Below, piece by piece: positions 15,821-24,317 of a stretch of 64,000 bases of DNA. This DNA is from Candidatus Methylacidiphilum fumarolicum (GTDB lineage: Bacteria; Verrucomicrobiota; Verrucomicrobiia; Methylacidiphilales; Methylacidiphilaceae), in assembly GCF_949774925.1 (NCBI RefSeq), contig NZ_OX458932.1:1364001-1428000 (forward strand), given 5' to 3'. Within the stretch, counting starts at the first letter, position 1. Every line of letters begins with the position of its first letter. Below the pieces are notes generated by a model. It saw only the letters and a program-made list of their open reading frames with translations. It did not search any database and was not told where the DNA came from. Both the position numbers and the translations under genes were made by a program.

Positions 15821-17254
15821 ATGGCTGAATATTATAGGAGGTGTGCCACTGGAGAAGAAGTAATATCTTTTGCTCTGGAGCATAATGTAAAACTGGTTAA
15901 TCTAAAGTTCTGTGATTTATTAGGAACTTGGCAACATTTTACAATTGGTTTAGACCTATTGACTCCTGAATCTTTTTCCGAAGGAATAGGTTTTGATGGA
16001 TCATCTATTCGCGGATGGCAAGGAATACAAGAATCAGATATGCTAGTCATGCCCGACCCATACACCGCCTTTATTGATCCTTTTATTGCCGAACCTACTT
16101 TGAGCTTGATCTGTTCAATATATGACCCCATCACTCTTCAGACTTATTCTAAGGATCCTCGTAGTATTGCCATAAGAGCTGAGGCTTATCTTAAAAGTAC
16201 TGGAATCGCAGATACCGCTTATTTCGGTCCTGAAGCCGAATTCTTTATATTAGACAGTGTTCGATACGATAACCAAGCTAACTTCGCTTATTACGAAGTC
16301 GATTCTGTCGAAGGAATATGGAATAGTGGGAAAGAAAATGGACAGAACTTTGGATATAAAATACGCCATAAAGAAGGTTATTTTCCTGTTCCCCCTGCGG
16401 ATACTTTACAGGATCTAAGAGATCAAATGGTGTTGACACTCGAATCGATGGGGATCAAAGTCGAAAGACAACATCATGAAGTTGCAACAGCAGGACAAGC
16501 AGAAATAGATATCGTCTACAATACCCTGCTCCGGATCGGTGACGATATGATGATGTATAAGTATGTAATAAAAAATACGGCTAGAAAATATGGTAAAACC
16601 GTTACATTTATGCCCAAACCTATTTTTGGGGATAATGGATCAGGGATGCATACCCATCAATCACTCTGGAAGGAAGGCAAACCTCTTTTTGCTGGAAACC
16701 GGTATGCAGGGCTAAGTGAAATGGCTCTTCATTATATTGGTGGTATCATTAAACATGCCCCTGCCCTCACCGCTATCACAAATCCAACAACAAATAGCTT
16801 TAAAAGGCTTGTTCCTGGTTTCGAAGCACCAGTCAATCTAGCCTATTCTGCAAGAAATAGAAGTGCTGCTATTCGTATTCCCACCTACTCGGCCAATCCC
16901 AAGACAAAGCGAATCGAGTTTCGTACTCCAGATCCTTCTGCCAATCCTTATTTAGCTTGTGCAGCCATGCTTATGGCAGGTCTTGATGGTATTCAGAATA
17001 GGATAGATCCTGGAGAGCCTATGGAAAAAAATATCTATGAGCTTCCTCCTGAAGAATTAAAAAACATTCCCAAAGTCCCCGATTCCTTAAGTGGTGCAAT
17101 CGATGCCCTTGAGAGGGACCATGAGTTCCTTATGAAAGGAGATGTCTTTACGAAGGACGCAATTGAAACACTGCTAACTTTACGCAAAAAGGATTATGAT
17201 ATGCTAAGGATACGGCCTCATCCATTGGAGTTCTATATGTATTATGACATTTAG
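15821..17254 (+). CDS. glnA: Glutamine synthetase type I
   Basis: 477 residues, full length for GSI. Visible motifs are [10 protein letters not shown] (the beta-grasp/latch region), FGPEAEFF and GQAEIDI (metal and glutamate ligands), [19 protein letters not shown] with [12 protein letters not shown] (ATP and ammonium site), and [12 protein letters not shown]. Tyr406 in NIYELPPEE matches the adenylylation site (Tyr397) of the GSI-beta class, so activity is probably controlled by GlnE under P-II. It catalyses ATP-dependent synthesis of glutamine from glutamate and ammonium. An AGAGGAGG ribosome site precedes the ATG. I saw no sigma-54 site in the 193-bp gap after glnB. Confidence 0.97.
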
Positions 17255-17268
17255 AGCTTAATGATAGG

Positions 17269-17283
17269 TGGGAGATCCTCCCA
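17269..17283 (+). terminator. Weak hairpin after glnA
   Basis: TGGGAG-ATC-CTCCCA forms a 6-bp stem with a 3-nt loop 15 bp after the glnA stop. It is followed by an AT-rich stretch but not a T-run, so it is at best a weak terminator. Confidence 0.35.
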
Positions 17284-17375
17284 AGAATAAATTTGAGGAA
17301 TGGCATAGATAAGTGCATAAGGTTTGATCGGATTTACTTTATCCATATGCCTTTTCATATGAACTGATCTATCAC

Positions 17376-18075
17376 TTACTGTGCCATTCGATTTTTACTT
17401 TTCTTTTCGGCAAATGCGGGTTTAAACAGTTTCCATAAAATTGGACTATCTCGCGCAGGAATGTATAGTTTGAACATGTCGCGCAAGAGATAGACAGCAT
17501 TCAAGAGGCCGCCGAGTTCCTGGGAGTGATGCTGCCCAAACGTAGCGGCCATAGGAACACGAGGGCGAGCTCTTGCCTCTAGCACACACGGCGGAGAACG
17601 TCGCTGCTACTATCTTGAGCGGTTGCGCTCAGATCTATTTTGTGCCAAAGTCGAATCCAACCCTACGTACCATTGCCTACGCCCATGTTACGACCACGAT
17701 CTCGGAGATTTCTCCCGTTCCCTCATCTCCATTAGATGCAGGAAATTCTTTCTCTTGCAGTTTAGTCCACTGCATTCAAGCCTCCAGCCGTTTGTCCACC
17801 ATCTTACTTTGAACCAGGCAAGACCATTCTAGTTCTTCCCGCTGATCCTTGAGATCTTCCTTCTGCCCGGCACTGGAGACTCTTGTGTAGGAGCTGTGCG
17901 ACGCTCTCGTTGTCTTTTAGCCGACCACCCACAACAGTCCCCGTGGTGTAGTATTGACGGTTTGTCAGAGTCCGTTTGGCGGGCAACACGCCTTCCCGAG
18001 GCCTTTCGCTACTGCCTGTTTACGCTCCAACCAATCAGTGTTCTAAACCTCTTCAGCGAATATAGGTTCATCGTG
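17376..18075 (-). pseudogene. Degraded insertion-sequence fragment (copy C of the 30-37 kb repeat, TnpB N-terminal side)
   Basis: Higher G+C than its neighbours and no intact frame. The part from about 17738 to 18062 is a diverged copy of sequence found at about 31770-32080 and 36652-36975. For example, the minus strand reads PAKRTLTNRQYY, against PAKRTTTNWRYYPHEDY in the 32-kb copy, and LLHKSLQCRAEG against LHKSFQRRAKEG. Only the upstream end of the element is left. 17376-17737 is similar in composition but I could not match it to the other copies. The sequence from 18076 to 18482 holds no gene. Confidence 0.6.
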
Positions 18076-18482
18076 CAGACTTCCTTGATATCATGCTAAT
18101 TGCAGTGTGGGTTGAATATGGACAAGAGATGCTCTTTGCCTCCGATATCAGAGAGTAATCTAGCTTTACCACACTTACTTATATCTTATTTTTCCCTGTA
18201 TATCGTTTTGCCATGTATATCGGAGACATGCTCCTAAGAGTTACGCAACGGTTAGAAAAAAAATTTTTAACACTCCATCTGATCTCCCAATCGTTAACTC
18301 GCTAACAGCTCATTAATGAATAGGGATTCTCTCTTTTTTTTATATAAGTTGAAAGAAAGGAAGAAATAATTTTATGATCAAATCAAAATAAAAGAAAAAT
18401 GATTTTTTAAAGTTGTTATCCTATAAAGATATGCCTAAAAAATGAAAGCACTTAAATTGTTTTTCCATTTATTGCGGACAAA

Positions 18483-19685
18483 ATGGGAATAAAAATTTGC
18501 GACATTACACAGTTTTATGCTCCTGGTGGAGGAGTCAAAAGATATATAGATGAAAAGCAGGATTATATCCGTCAAAAAAAAGAAGATGAGCATTTTCTCA
18601 TAATTCCGGGAGAAAAAACTTTCTCTATTCATGCCCCCCCTATCCACGTATTTAGTATTAAGTCTCCTTTAATCAATCAGTTTTCTCAACATAGGATTTT
18701 ATTGAACCTAACAGAAGTTATCAATCTCTTGCATGAGATAAAAGCAGATATTATAGAAGCCGGGGATCCTTACCAATCTTCCTGGCTTGTTTCTTGGACT
18801 GCAAAAAAACTCAAAGTTCCTGTTGTTGGCTACTACCATTCTCATTTTCCTGATGCTTATGTTCGAACCTATTTTGGTTGGAAAAATTCTTTTTTAGAAA
18901 AGGCTTTTTTTACCTTTTCTCGCTGGTATGCAGAGGAAATTTACAATCAATTCGACTTTACTTTTGTCCCTACTCTTTCTCTCTTAAATTTACTGCGAAG
19001 CTGGGGTATCAAAAACGGAGTTCATCTCAGCCTGGGAGTAGATACCAAAACATTTACTCCTGATCCTCCAAAGTACAACTATCGGTTAAAACTCGAAATT
19101 CCTAAAGACGCTTTTCTGTTATTATATGTTGGCAGGCTAGCAAAGGAAAAAAACATTGGTTTATTGCTGAAAACATTTTTTTTTCTTCAGGATTATTCCT
19201 CTAAAAAAGACTATTGGTTATTAATTATAGGTGACGGCCCCTTAAGGAATGAGATTCTCAAAGCGATAAAAGCCTCTAATAGAATCTGTTGGATTCCAAG
19301 AGTAGATTCGAAAAAAGAACTCGCCGATTATTATCGGTCTGCAGATCTTTTTATTCATCCTGGAATCGTTGAGACATTTGGATTAGTAACCATCGAAAGC
19401 CAAGCTTGTGGCTGTCCAGTAGTAGGATTCCGTGGAACGCATATGGAGGATTTAGTCGGGGAAGGATTCAATGAGTACTGGGCAGATAGAAAAGACTTTC
19501 GTTCCTTAGCCGAAGCTGTAGAAAAAATGCGAACATTAGATCTAAAAACAATCGGGAAAAACCTCGCGTTGAATGTGCATCAAAAATACAGTTGGAGAAG
19601 ATCATTTGAAAAACTCTGGTATTACTATTATGAAGCTATTTCAAATTCTTTCATACAGAAAGGCGCTCTTAGATATGCTAGCTAA
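18483..19685 (+). CDS. GT-B glycosyltransferase, family 4 type
   Basis: 400 residues with GT-B architecture. The N-terminal domain starts with an acceptor-binding Gly-rich loop (FYAPGGGVKRYI). The C-terminal donor domain has LLYVGRLAKEKNIGLLL, LLIIGDGPLRNEIL and the family EX7E region GIVETFGLVTIESQACG. These motifs are typical of GT4 retaining glycosyltransferases that transfer sugar from UDP- or GDP-sugars, often to lipids or phosphatidylinositol. The neighbouring PAP2-type phosphatase fits a lipid or glycolipid context but lies on the other strand. Acceptor and sugar cannot be read from the sequence. Confidence 0.88.
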   Translation: MGIKICDITQFYAPGGGVKRYIDEKQDYIRQKKEDEHFLIIPGEKTFSIHAPPIHVFSIKSPLINQFSQHRILLNLTEVINLLHEIKADIIEAGDPYQSSWLVSWTAKKLKVPVVGYYHSHFPDAYVRTYFGWKNSFLEKAFFTFSRWYAEEIYNQFDFTFVPTLSLLNLLRSWGIKNGVHLSLGVDTKTFTPDPPKYNYRLKLEIPKDAFLLLYVGRLAKEKNIGLLLKTFFFLQDYSSKKDYWLLIIGDGPLRNEILKAIKASNRICWIPRVDSKKELADYYRSADLFIHPGIVETFGLVTIESQACGCPVVGFRGTHMEDLVGEGFNEYWADRKDFRSLAEAVEKMRTLDLKTIGKNLALNVHQKYSWRRSFEKLWYYYYEAISNSFIQKGALRYAS

Positions 19686-19866
19686 GCATATATTGTTTCT
19701 GCGATAGGGCTTCTCAAAAATTATGAAAAAAAATTTATAATTTTCTCAACAAGAAATTAATTTAGCATCATTTTTTTCATTTTTTCTTTATGAATAAAAT
19801 CTTCAACCTGTCAGCATGAAACTCCCCTTTTTTTCCAAATTTTTATAAAAATCAGTTTTTCTTTTT

Positions 19867-20634
19867 TCATTTTTCAATTTTTTGAAAAGCAACTCCATAA
19901 TTTTGGATTTCCGATTTGCTAAATATGAATCCTAATAGAAACCCCACAAGGCCACCCGCCATAACATCTGAAAAATAATGTCTCCCTAATGCCATTCTGG
20001 ACCAACAAACTAAAAAGGCCAAAAAAACCAGAAAATATCCTAACTTAGGCATTTGTCCTAAAAAACTAGCTGCAGTTGCCATGGAAGTTGCTGCATGTCC
20101 AGAAGGAAAACCATGGAACATAGTCAACCACTGGATGCCATAAAAGCCATCGACCAAAGAGCCATTTGGATGGATTCTTTTAAAACTAACAATAGGCAAA
20201 GGAATATATCCTAATTCTTTTATGGCTTCGGTTGCACTTGCCGAAGGTCGGGCGCGTCCTAAGATATTTCTTCCTAAATCAACCAATGCTCCAGCAATAA
20301 GGGCCGAAAAGAAACATCCAATGGCCACTTCTTTCAATTTCTCTTTTTTAAATAAAATTCCTAAAAAATAGATGCTCACGCAAAGAGGAACTGTTCCTTG
20401 AGGAAAGTCACCCCAATAACTTATTTTTTCAGCAAAAACGTGAAAAAGAGAATCTCCTTTTATTAAAAAAAAACTGTAAAATAGAAAATCCAGCTGAAAT
20501 GCTAGAATAACACTTAAAAACCAGACTAATGGAAAACCTAATTTTATTGTTGGTGGTAGATTTTTAAGAACTTCAAAAACAGCTAAAAATTTCTTTTTTG
20601 AAAGTTGATAAAACCGAAAACATTCATTTTTCAT
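19867..20634 (-). CDS. PAP2-superfamily membrane phosphatase
   Basis: 255 residues with about six hydrophobic segments. The three phosphatase motifs are present: GRNILGRARP (motif 1, KX6RP-type with the leading Lys replaced by Arg), PSGH in GFPSGHAATSMA (motif 2), and SRMALGRHYFSDV (motif 3, SRX5HX3D). Known relatives dephosphorylate undecaprenyl diphosphate, phosphatidic acid or lipid A. The start overlaps the end of the upstream cysteine-desulfurase-like gene by 4 bp, suggesting one transcript. The exact substrate is unknown. Confidence 0.88.
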   Translation of the reverse strand: MKNECFRFYQLSKKKFLAVFEVLKNLPPTIKLGFPLVWFLSVILAFQLDFLFYSFFLIKGDSLFHVFAEKISYWGDFPQGTVPLCVSIYFLGILFKKEKLKEVAIGCFFSALIAGALVDLGRNILGRARPSASATEAIKELGYIPLPIVSFKRIHPNGSLVDGFYGIQWLTMFHGFPSGHAATSMATAASFLGQMPKLGYFLVFLAFLVCWSRMALGRHYFSDVMAGGLVGFLLGFIFSKSEIQNYGVAFQKIEK

Positions 20635-21833
20635 TCGCTATTCTTTTTAGAAAGAAATTTTTTCCAACCAATAGACATCTCTCTGAGTTTGGTAACCACT
20701 CCGATATAAATATCAAGAAATCTTTCGATTTCTTCTTTGGTTGTAGTAATTCCCAAACTGATTCTTACACTGGACATTGCCTTTTGGTACTCCAACCCCA
20801 CAGCTTTAAATACATGGGAAATTCTCAAATTTTTTTGTACACAACTAGGCCCGCTTGAAAGCAAAACTCCTTTCATATCACAACTTAATACCTGTGCTTC
20901 TCCACCAATAAATTCGGGACTTATATTCAAATTCTGGATGGAACGGTTTGGACCAAGCTGTGGACCATTGAGAGATACCATTGGGATGCTAGCAGAAATT
21001 CTTTCCCAGATCAATTTTTGAAAATAGCCAATTTTTTCTATTTTTTCTTTAAAAATTTTTGTTGTAATTTCAGCCGCTTTAGCAGCAGCCACAATGGAAG
21101 CCATATTTTCTGTTCCTCCCCATAATCCTAACTCTTTATTGAGTCCTGGAATGATCGGTTCTATTTCTATTCCTTGTCTGATATAAAGTACTCCAATTCC
21201 TTTGGGCCCATTGAATTGATTGGGATTAATAGCCAAAAGCGAAATAGGTATTTTTTTTAAGTCAATGGGAATCCAGCCTCCGGCATAAGAACCATCACAA
21301 AAGAAAGCTATGCTTTTTTTTTCACAAATTTCAGCAGCTTCCTTTATCTTTTGAATGGTTCCTATTTCAGGATTAACCCATTGAAGACAGCAAAGGATGG
21401 TTTGTGGCGTTGACAACTCTTCGATAGCTTTGGGGTCAACCATTCCTTCCTTATCTACTGGCAGAAGGGTAAGTTGGGCACCCTCCCTTTTTAGTTTATC
21501 TAAAAGCAACAAGATTGGTTTTTGTTCGATAGGACTTGTCAGAATATGTTTGCCTCTGAGCGAATTTTTTCTCCAAAACCCTTCAATTCCAAGGATAATT
21601 GCTTCCCATATTCCACCAGTAAATACGAGTTCATCGGGAGAACATCCGATAAAAGAACTAAAAGACTCTAAAGCTGATTCTAAAGTCTTTTTTGATTGAA
21701 TTCCCAGTTGATGTATACTGAGGGGCGAAAAAGGTTCGAGGGAATAGTGATAGAAAAGTTCTAAAGCCTCTTTAAAAACAGGAGAAACAGATTGGTGATC
21801 CAAAAAAATTAGTTTGTCTATAGAACGCTCCAT
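20631..21833 (-). CDS. Cysteine-desulfurase-like class V protein lacking the PLP lysine (probable pseudoenzyme)
   Basis: 400 residues, aligning end to end with IscS/NifS with nearly identical numbering. The region that should contain the PLP Schiff-base lysine (SGHK, K206 in E. coli IscS) reads INPNQFNGPKG, giving Asn205 and Gln206. Other PLP contacts are changed as well: His104 to Gln (TSPIEQK), Asn155 to Pro (VNPEIG), Gln183 to Tyr (DGSY). Asp180, the mobile-loop Cys (C331 in SSGPSC) and the substrate-binding Arg (SSVRISLG) are kept. The frame is intact, so it is under selection for something other than normal PLP catalysis, such as sulfur transfer or scaffolding. The downstream PAP2 gene overlaps by 4 bp. 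Confidence 0.82.
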   Translation of the reverse strand: MERSIDKLIFLDHQSVSPVFKEALELFYHYSLEPFSPLSIHQLGIQSKKTLESALESFSSFIGCSPDELVFTGGIWEAIILGIEGFWRKNSLRGKHILTSPIEQKPILLLLDKLKREGAQLTLLPVDKEGMVDPKAIEELSTPQTILCCLQWVNPEIGTIQKIKEAAEICEKKSIAFFCDGSYAGGWIPIDLKKIPISLLAINPNQFNGPKGIGVLYIRQGIEIEPIIPGLNKELGLWGGTENMASIVAAAKAAEITTKIFKEKIEKIGYFQKLIWERISASIPMVSLNGPQLGPNRSIQNLNISPEFIGGEAQVLSCDMKGVLLSSGPSCVQKNLRISHVFKAVGLEYQKAMSSVRISLGITTTKEEIERFLDIYIGVVTKLREMSIGWKKFLSKKNSE

Positions 21834-21869
21834 GTATTGAACTGTTGATGCCCATTATTCTAGTAAAAA

Positions 21870-22667
21870 TCATCGTTGGGTGCTGTCTAAGGTATATAAA
21901 GAAGATTTATGTTTTTTTACAGTTTTTGTATAAATAGGACCAAACCAAGTATCGACTAGGCACAGACCCAAAAAAGCACCAAAAGGGATGGTATAATAAA
22001 AGGCCATTGTTAACGAATTAATGCCTAAAAGAAATGCTGAAGCAATCAAGTAATCAGTTTTTGAAAGGGCAAAAATCCTAAAATTTTCTGGAAAATTTAA
22101 AGCGCAATCAAAAACATTTACCCCATCAAGCCACCGGCAACAAGCTACAGCGCAAAAAGGAATAACAAACCATAGAATTGGAGGGATGAAAAGGGATAAA
22201 AGGCTAGAAGGTAACTCCAAAAGCTGGATAAAAATGTAATAAACAATTCCAATCCAAAGAATAGCGGGAAGGATAAGAGTTGTCAAAGCGATCGTCAATT
22301 TAGCGGCTCCTTCCCTAGCATAATTCCATAACAAAGAAAGTTTCCATTCCGGCAGTTGATTTAGCTTACCGGTTTTAGCTCTTCGAAGAACTTCAAAAGT
22401 AAATCCAAGAGGAAACCAGAAAGTGCATACATTAATGATAAGAAGTCCTAAAAAAGTGCTTGGTAGTTTTTCGGCACTGTGAGAGGAGCTTATTTTAGGA
22501 ATTAACGCTAAAAGGAAAGGATTAATGAGAAGAATTCCTCCGATCAAAACCTTCAGCCACCACCATGGATCAGAAAAGATTTGGGAGAAGCCCTTTTTAA
22601 TATCCAGAAAAAAGGTCGACTTTTCTATTTCAGGAGTATCAGAAGTCTGAAAAGCTTCTTCATGCAT
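21870..22667 (-). CDS. DUF4013-like membrane protein
   Basis: 265 residues with about five or six hydrophobic segments (near 40-60, 72-90, 120-145, 150-180 and 205-240). The stretch GFTFEVLRRAKTGKLNQLPEW followed by an amphipathic segment is the pattern of DUF4013 proteins, which are membrane proteins of unknown role. The first gene in the leftward run toward the cysteine-desulfurase-like and PAP2 genes, with 36 bp between, so possibly one operon. Function unknown. Confidence 0.6.
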   Translation of the reverse strand: MHEEAFQTSDTPEIEKSTFFLDIKKGFSQIFSDPWWWLKVLIGGILLINPFLLALIPKISSSHSAEKLPSTFLGLLIINVCTFWFPLGFTFEVLRRAKTGKLNQLPEWKLSLLWNYAREGAAKLTIALTTLILPAILWIGIVYYIFIQLLELPSSLLSLFIPPILWFVIPFCAVACCRWLDGVNVFDCALNFPENFRIFALSKTDYLIASAFLLGINSLTMAFYYTIPFGAFLGLCLVDTWFGPIYTKTVKKHKSSLYTLDSTQR

Positions 22668-22858
22668 AGTATAACTCCTTGATAAATACTTTAGATCCCT
22701 TCAAAAATTCAGTTTCTAAGAAAAAAATAGCTCTTTGTTTCTTTCATCCAGGAAGATTTAACTCCCATCTGAACTCTTACATTAAACCCAATAGTCAATT
22801 AATTTTTCCTATTTGTTCTATTAAACACTCCTCTTCGTATTTTTCCAACCAAAAAACA

Positions 22859-23212
22859 TTAAATATTGGTTCCCCCATGTCCCCAACCTAACGGTTCTCC
22901 TCCAATCAAATGAACATGAAGATGAGGTATGCTTTCTCCTGCATCTGGACCATTGTTGATAATGACTCTAAAGCCTGAATGAAAAATTCCTAGCTGAGTA
23001 GCGACTTTATTAGCCGTCAAAAGAAGATGTCCTAAAAGGGGAATATCCTCCTCAGAGGCTTCGCCAAGTCTGGGAATTTCTTTCCTAGGCACTATAAGAA
23101 CGTGAACTCTGGCTACGGGATGTATATCACGAAATGCAACGCATTGGCTATCCTCATAGAGGATATCGGCTGGTATTTTCCTAGAGATGATTTGACTGAA
23201 AAGAGAAGGCAT
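22859..23212 (-). CDS. HIT-family nucleotide hydrolase/transferase
   Basis: 117 residues from the ATG at 23212, which begins PSLFSQIISRKIPADIL. Longer in-frame starts run into the upstream nrdR gene. The catalytic HIT motif HLHVHLIGG is near the C-terminus. FRDIHPVARVHVLIVPRK and NNGPDAGES are also typical of the Hint/YcfF branch, which hydrolyses adenosine phosphoramidates or related nucleotides. It follows nrdR by 13 bp and is probably co-transcribed. Confidence 0.9.
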   Translation of the reverse strand: MPSLFSQIISRKIPADILYEDSQCVAFRDIHPVARVHVLIVPRKEIPRLGEASEEDIPLLGHLLLTANKVATQLGIFHSGFRVIINNGPDAGESIPHLHVHLIGGEPLGWGHGGTNI

Positions 23213-23225
23213 AGCACAATTTTTC

Positions 23226-23726
23226 CTATTGGGAAGCAGCTGGAGAAAGCATAGGAATATCTTTTGATCGAGCTTCATTCATTTTAAGTTCTGAAATGAC
23301 GTTCATAAAATCTTCCGCATCGTGAAATTTACAATAGACAGAAGCAAAACGGATAAAAGCTACTTCGTCAATAGTTTTCAGTTTATTCATAACTTTTGTG
23401 CCAATCAAATAGGAAGGAATAATGGAAGACTTTTCGGTACTACATTCTTCTATAATTTGATCAACAAAATCTTCAATTTGAGCTTGATCTATTGGCCTTT
23501 TTTCCAATGCTTTTTGAATTCCTAGCATCAGCTTATTTCTATCAAAAGGTTCAATCAAACCATTTCTTTTTTTGACTAAAAGTTCAATTTCTTGGATTTC
23601 TTCATAGGTAGTGAATCGAAATCCACATTGTAAGCATTCCCTACGTCTTCGAATCGATCTGCCCTCTTTTATTGGCCTGGAGTCTATAACTTTATCCTCC
23701 ATATTTCCGCATTTCATACATTTCAT
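23226..23726 (-). CDS. nrdR: Ribonucleotide reductase transcriptional repressor
   Basis: 166 residues. The N-terminal zinc ribbon uses CMKCG at 3-7 and CLQCGFRF near 34-38, with SRPIKEGRSIRRRREC between. The ATP-cone domain follows (LVKKRNGLIEPFDRNKLMLGI). This is the full NrdR architecture. NrdR senses ATP/dATP and represses ribonucleotide reductase genes through NrdR boxes. No nrd gene is in the window. An HIT-family gene follows immediately downstream. Confidence 0.95.
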   Translation of the reverse strand: MKCMKCGNMEDKVIDSRPIKEGRSIRRRRECLQCGFRFTTYEEIQEIELLVKKRNGLIEPFDRNKLMLGIQKALEKRPIDQAQIEDFVDQIIEECSTEKSSIIPSYLIGTKVMNKLKTIDEVAFIRFASVYCKFHDAEDFMNVISELKMNEARSKDIPMLSPAASQ

Positions 23727-23864
23727 ACTTGAAATGACAATATAATCATATTTTATTCAATTACTGAGATCAACCATTAACGCTATTTTTAAAATAGATA
23801 AAATTGACTATTTTACAAGCTTTTCGTGCTTTTTCCTACTTAAACCTCAACCCTTTGCAATTGT

Positions 23865-24317
23865 ATGAAAATTCTTACTTCCATTCTTGCCGCAGAAACA
23901 TTGGTGATTGATAGCTCGATTCATGCTTCCCTACTTGATTTAAAAGAACCCCATATAAAAGAGCATGCCCCAATTCAAATACATCTCACTGCTTACAAAG
24001 ATGAGGAAGAGATATATTTTAATGGAAATTTAAAAACATCCGTGCTTATTCAATGTGGCAGATGCTGCAAATGGTTTGAATATCCGATCGAAATTTCCAA
24101 TTTTTCCCTACAACTTCATGCCCCTTTTCCAGAGGTAATTGATCTATCCAACAGAATAAGAGAAGATATATTGTTGGCCTTGCCAATGATTGGTTTTTGT
24201 GGGCCTGAAGTTGCAAATGGTTGTTTTGGCAAGGAACTTTTTGAAGATCAGCATAAAGAGACATCCATTCATGACGCAGGCATTTGGAAAATACTTGAAA
24301 AAATTATAAAAAGATAG
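23865..24317 (+). CDS. DUF177 (YceD) family protein upstream of rpmF
   Basis: 150 residues. The central VLIQCGRCCKWFEYPIEI matches the CxRC segment of DUF177/YceD proteins, followed by the acidic segment NRIREDILLALPM. The second Cys cluster is partly kept (FCGPEVANGC). The gene precedes rpmF by 73 bp, the conserved order yceD-rpmF-plsX-fabH seen in many bacteria. YceD-type proteins have been linked to 23S rRNA maturation, but the biochemical role here is not established. Confidence 0.8.
   Translation: MKILTSILAAETLVIDSSIHASLLDLKEPHIKEHAPIQIHLTAYKDEEEIYFNGNLKTSVLIQCGRCCKWFEYPIEISNFSLQLHAPFPEVIDLSNRIREDILLALPMIGFCGPEVANGCFGKELFEDQHKETSIHDAGIWKILEKIIKR

Follow-up and report, generated by a model that had tools for sequence, protein, structure and literature searches.

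The window analysed here, a 64,000-nucleotide stretch of the genome of Candidatus Methylacidiphilum fumarolicum, a methane-oxidising volcanic bacterium, encodes a protein of the IscS/NifS type, denoted IscS*, that lacks the PLP lysine. The locus raises the question of what a desulfurase-shaped protein may do without this residue, and whether it is still a PLP protein, a decaying copy, or a cysteine-loop protein with another role.

The IscS* locus and the active-site residues of its product

The gene, two of its coding segments and its immediate neighbours are located as follows:

20631–21833, minus strand: lysine-less IscS/NifS-type protein (IscS*), 400 aa; open reading frame with a PF00266 match, member of a 29-protein clade.
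21201–21230, minus strand: segment coding INPNQFNGPK, in which N203, N205 and Q206 replace Ser203, His205 and the PLP lysine Lys206, followed by K211.
20835–20858, minus strand: mobile-loop motif SSGPSCVQ with C331 (C328 of IscS); the Cys is invariant in all 29 clade members.
19867–20634, minus strand: PAP2-superfamily phosphatase (PF01569, 1.1e-18); downstream neighbour kept in Methylacidiphilum and genus g3.
21870–22667, minus strand: uncharacterised probable membrane protein (c3), 265 aa; upstream neighbour kept across the family.

The IscS* frame is open from the ATG (21833) to the stop codon (20631). This intact frame and its 4-bp overlap with the PAP2 gene, both described in the first-pass annotation, were reproduced from the ORF coordinates, and the overlap suggests translational coupling. 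Residues 10–372 match PF00266 (Aminotran_5) at 1e-43, corresponding to a full-length group-I desulfurase fold. Among NCBI families, NifS and IscS come closest, with scores of about half the curated cut-offs or less: TIGR03402 (NifS) is matched at 8e-85 with 285 bits (cut-off 531) and TIGR02006 with 236 bits (cut-off 643), both below equivalog level. The membrane protein c3 has no Pfam match; in all family members inspected it is found upstream of IscS*, and it is better conserved than IscS* (80–83% versus 68–69% identity between distant Methylacidiphilum). An Rfam search over positions 17200–24000 revealed no RNA, and promoter and terminator scans gave background level only. Elsewhere in this region, glnA is separated from the glycosyltransferase gene by about 1.2 kb (17255–18482) with no convincing ORF and no Rfam match, possibly a decayed gene, and the HIT-domain ORF (22859–23278, minus strand) overlaps nrdR by about 50 bases as called, an internal ATG being its more likely start.

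Residues were numbered according to E. coli IscS from NC_000913.3 (MG1655), aligned with IscS* in a multiple alignment. Every substitution listed in the first-pass annotation (H104Q, N155P, Q183Y, H205N and K206Q) was recovered, as were the residues it had given as kept, namely D180, the loop Cys C328 (C331 in the window protein) and R354. The alignment added two losses, S203N and T76W (PLP-phosphate region), and revealed that D8, E77 and K211 are also retained. The five Methylacidiphilum genomes do not differ from one another at any of these named active-site columns, and all of them have Gln at position 206. With regard to the residues that define a cysteine desulfurase, the Schiff-base lysine K206 is gone, H104, N155, Q183, S203 and H205 are replaced by Q, P, Y, N and N, respectively, and the catalytic mobile-loop Cys is present. 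Judged from its sequence, IscS* is therefore a member of the IscS/NifS family by descent that does not qualify as a cysteine desulfurase. Formation of an internal aldimine should not be possible in such a protein, which in Methylacidiphilum probably holds no PLP at all. An AlphaFold model built from a two-sequence input had a pLDDT of 34, too low for use.

A lysine-less clade across the order

A search over 60 relatives, in which the individual sites were read, identified 29 orthologues, each from a different genome of the order, belonging to the window's own family Methylacidiphilaceae (f1) and to families f2, f8 and f9. Position 206 is occupied by Arg in 17 of them, Gly in six, Gln in five and His in one (the f9 member L032), and by Lys in none. 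N155 and Q183, which each of the 33 lysine-containing homologues used retains, are gone from the entire clade, while D180 is as invariant as the loop Cys; R354 is retained in Methylacidiphilum and absent from most of the clade. The orthologues also have residues of their own: Trp at position 187 in 28 of 29 (Lys in 32 of the 33 lysine-containing homologues), an inserted Gly294 in all, and Phe or Tyr at position 178 in all (His in the lysine-containing homologues). These common residues point to a new constraint rather than to decay. The loss of the PLP site is graded, from an Arg form that retains most of the site to a Gln/Gly form in which it is dismantled: H104, D180, S203 and H205 are found in 12 of 12 f9 members, and T76 in 10, and most of H104, S203, H205 and T76 are gone in Methylacidiphilum and g3.

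IQ-TREE analysis (LG+C20) placed the 29 lysine-less proteins in one clade with support of 100/99; masking nine active-site segments and thinning out some rows changed this to 100/96. A phylogeny with the paralogues of the genome, suggested as a check in the first-pass annotation, set the protein apart from them, the three lysine-containing NifS/IscS proteins of the same genome falling across the clade branch. Lysine-containing desulfurases are separately present in the window's own genome and in the f9, f8, f2 and g2 genomes checked. One of the loci inspected (L002 1489–4000; about 1149056–1151567 of the window's own genome) has a lysine-containing NifS-type gene with, immediately after it, a second class-V aminotransferase-fold gene, which belongs to another subfamily. 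Outside the order, the best 27 homologues in the phylum sample all have Lys, and a DNA pattern for PHRF(Y/F)GP gave five matches in 387 phylum genomes, none of them in a desulfurase homologue. The best tblastn matches among plasmid records reached about 45% identity, and the only match in the contig scan was Methylacidiphilum sp. Yel (96% protein identity).

The same columns bear on whether the PLP lysine has merely moved, to K211 or elsewhere, in an ordinary desulfurase, the escape that the first-pass annotation itself had named. K211 is close in sequence, but it accompanies K206 in 33 of 33 lysine-containing homologues and some members of the lysine-less clade have V, P or Q in its place; furthermore, none of the lysine columns is invariant within the clade, and other PLP and substrate residues have been lost too. 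We thus regard a relocated lysine as highly improbable.

Alternatively, the clade might still consist of PLP proteins that bind the cofactor without an internal Schiff base and carry out some catalysis with Arg, His or Gln at the lysine position. ColD is a PLP enzyme of this fold type with His instead of Lys, and the absence of Lys is therefore no strict proof that PLP chemistry is absent, above all in the Arg form, which keeps S203, H205, D180 and mostly T76. The extensive PLP site of the f9 proteins, H104 included, and His206 in L032 are in line with this proposal. It is nevertheless unlikely, since N155 and Q183 are missing throughout and R354 from most members, Methylacidiphilum has additionally lost T76, H104, S203 and H205, and residue 206, which may be R, Q, G or H, is more variable than a single conserved function in catalysis would allow.

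Selection, expression and gene neighbourhoods

Comparison of IscS* in two close Methylacidiphilum genomes yielded dN/dS values of 0.11 and 0.15 (NG86) and 0.13 and 0.17 (YN00), much like those of the adjacent genes, indicating that IscS* is not decaying. As for its expression, nifS2 (Mfum_90010) of M. fumariolicum SolV, annotated as a cysteine desulfurase, was recorded at 159, 133 and 116 RPKM in three conditions; its locus tag is five away from that of glnA (Mfum_90015) and six away from that of glnB (Mfum_90016) (PMC3404531). The gene order in the window is PII, glutamine synthetase, glycosyltransferase, PAP2 and IscS*, and this matching order around glnB/glnA identifies nifS2, by position, as the IscS* gene. 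On that assignment, the gene is transcribed and is not induced alongside the nif genes (SolV data, PMC3404531), and the published annotation of nifS2 as a cysteine desulfurase is one to revise.

These data bear directly on the possibility that IscS* is a decaying duplicate on its way to becoming a pseudogene, as the many missing catalytic residues and the long branch leading to the genus (1.24 changes per column) might suggest. The reading frame is open in all 29 members, purifying selection is evident from the dN/dS values, the clade has conserved residues of its own, and transcripts are recorded for the SolV gene assigned by position to this locus (PMC3404531). The pseudogene reading was rejected on these grounds, its probability being close to negligible.

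In family f9, a gene for IscU (PF01592, 164–170 bits) directly adjoins the Arg-type gene in 12 of 12 genomes, and this IscU appears canonical, its Cys, Asp and LPPVK motifs looking complete on reading. Eight f9 loci were read at length (L052, L055–L059, L062 and L063). A Mrp-type ATPase with MIP18 and ParA domains adjoins in all of them, a Rrf2 or winged-helix regulator is found nearby upstream in seven, and an IscA-like gene lies behind the ATPase in three; no HscA, HscB or ferredoxin was found at these eight loci. The f9 operon order reads (Rrf2 or winged-helix regulator), IscU, Arg-form IscS, Mrp-type ATPase, (IscA-like), the genes in parentheses being those found at some loci. In families f1, f2 and f8, no IscU adjoins the lysine-less gene. 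Methylacidiphilum has one PF01592 protein, adjoining SufS, and the neighbourhood comparison revealed no Fe-S gene near IscS* in this genus. Instead, the order membrane protein, IscS*, PAP2 is kept in Methylacidiphilum and g3, and its first pair in g2.

This arrangement raises the possibility that in Methylacidiphilaceae the protein has a role unrelated to Fe-S clusters or sulfur, for instance a structural or regulatory one in partnership with the adjacent PAP2 phosphatase and membrane protein. The kept gene order, the coupling suggested by the PAP2 overlap and the lack of a nearby Fe-S gene agree with such a role, but a purely structural partner would have no need of the loop Cys, which is present in 12 of 12 family members. 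We consider this proposal rather unlikely, if worth keeping in mind.

Interpretation and comparison with known lysine-less IscS proteins

The presence of a probably inactive version in the putative Fe-S assembly operon of a sister family suggests that the protein is probably a scaffold or carrier, not an enzyme. The explanation that we favour, with modest confidence and on the basis of the sequences, is that IscS* would be a pseudoenzyme of group-I cysteine desulfurase ancestry, acting as a Cys-loop ligand or carrier, whose IscU partner was later lost in Methylacidiphilaceae. According to this proposal, an ancestor in the order would have lost the PLP lysine and substrate-side residues while working with the scaffold IscU, and would have retained the fold and the mobile-loop cysteine. 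By analogy with A. fulgidus IscS, the loop Cys would probably ligate a cluster during its assembly, or temporarily store sulfur delivered by other enzymes. After the loss of the IscU partner in Methylacidiphilaceae, the PLP pocket would have been eroded further in Methylacidiphilum and g3 (T76W, H104Q, S203N and H205N in Methylacidiphilum), leaving a PLP-free protein that may work with another partner. Our best guess for its present role in Methylacidiphilum is a Cys-based carrier, ligand or regulator. The lack of an Fe-S gene beside IscS* and the retention of R354, for which a pure ligand has no obvious use, count against this explanation. The residue losses, the single clade, the purifying selection, the f9 operon and the missing IscU neighbour in the window's family are observed; we infer the absence of PLP chemistry, the Fe-S role in f9 and the order of events. 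The first-pass proposal of a probable pseudoenzyme whose Cys loop is intact is nonetheless strengthened by the clade-wide loss, the purifying selection and the IscU operon in f9. More tentatively, the Fe-S operon of the order might contain a dead IscS that donates a Cys to IscU as a co-scaffold and receives its sulfur from elsewhere, and the Methylacidiphilum protein might be a co-scaffold that has become independent of IscU and PLP and has a new partner.

Among active group-I enzymes, E. coli IscS and NifS share with Methylacidiphilum IscS* the fold, the loop Cys, D180, E77 and R354; unlike them, IscS* lacks K206, N155, Q183, H104, S203, H205 and T76. Lysine-less IscS proteins are known in archaea, namely A. 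fulgidus IscS and Methanosarcina acetivorans IscS1 (PMC7585200). The Archaeoglobus fulgidus protein (PDB 4eb5, 4eb7, 4hvk and 4r5f; IscS-IscU complex) likewise has the group-I fold without the PLP lysine; it is reported to be inactive, its loop Cys ligating a [2Fe-2S] cluster on IscU (PMC7585200). It resembles IscS* in H205N, the loss of Q183 and the kept loop Cys, most of the clade in lacking R354, and f9 in its IscU partner. The differences are that its Lys is replaced by Asp (PMC7585200) whereas the clade has Arg, Gln, Gly or His, and that it retains N155 and H104, the PLP site of the Methylacidiphilum protein being far more eroded and its gene having no IscU neighbour. The A. fulgidus sequence was taken from the 4r5f alignment, and its lysine position was masked because that entry carries Lys at a site reported as Asp in the wild-type protein (PMC7585200). 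In the tree the A. fulgidus protein falls outside the clade, although a joint clade with it is only weakly disfavoured and not rejected (p-AU 0.08). M. acetivorans IscS1 is also lysine-less and has an IscU counterpart, and its genome encodes a further desulfurase, which is active (PMC7585200); it differs from the clade in being archaeal. By analogy, the f9 operon fits the A. fulgidus cluster-ligand model in bacteria. With the archaeal cases already known, it is the conserved bacterial lysine-less IscS clade, and the form with a dismantled PLP site, that appear to be new. The A. fulgidus structure had raised the question of why a desulfurase-shaped protein without desulfurase chemistry stays beside IscU; with 29 bacterial examples in which the PLP site is lost to different degrees, and IscU is present beside some and absent beside others, that question becomes testable.
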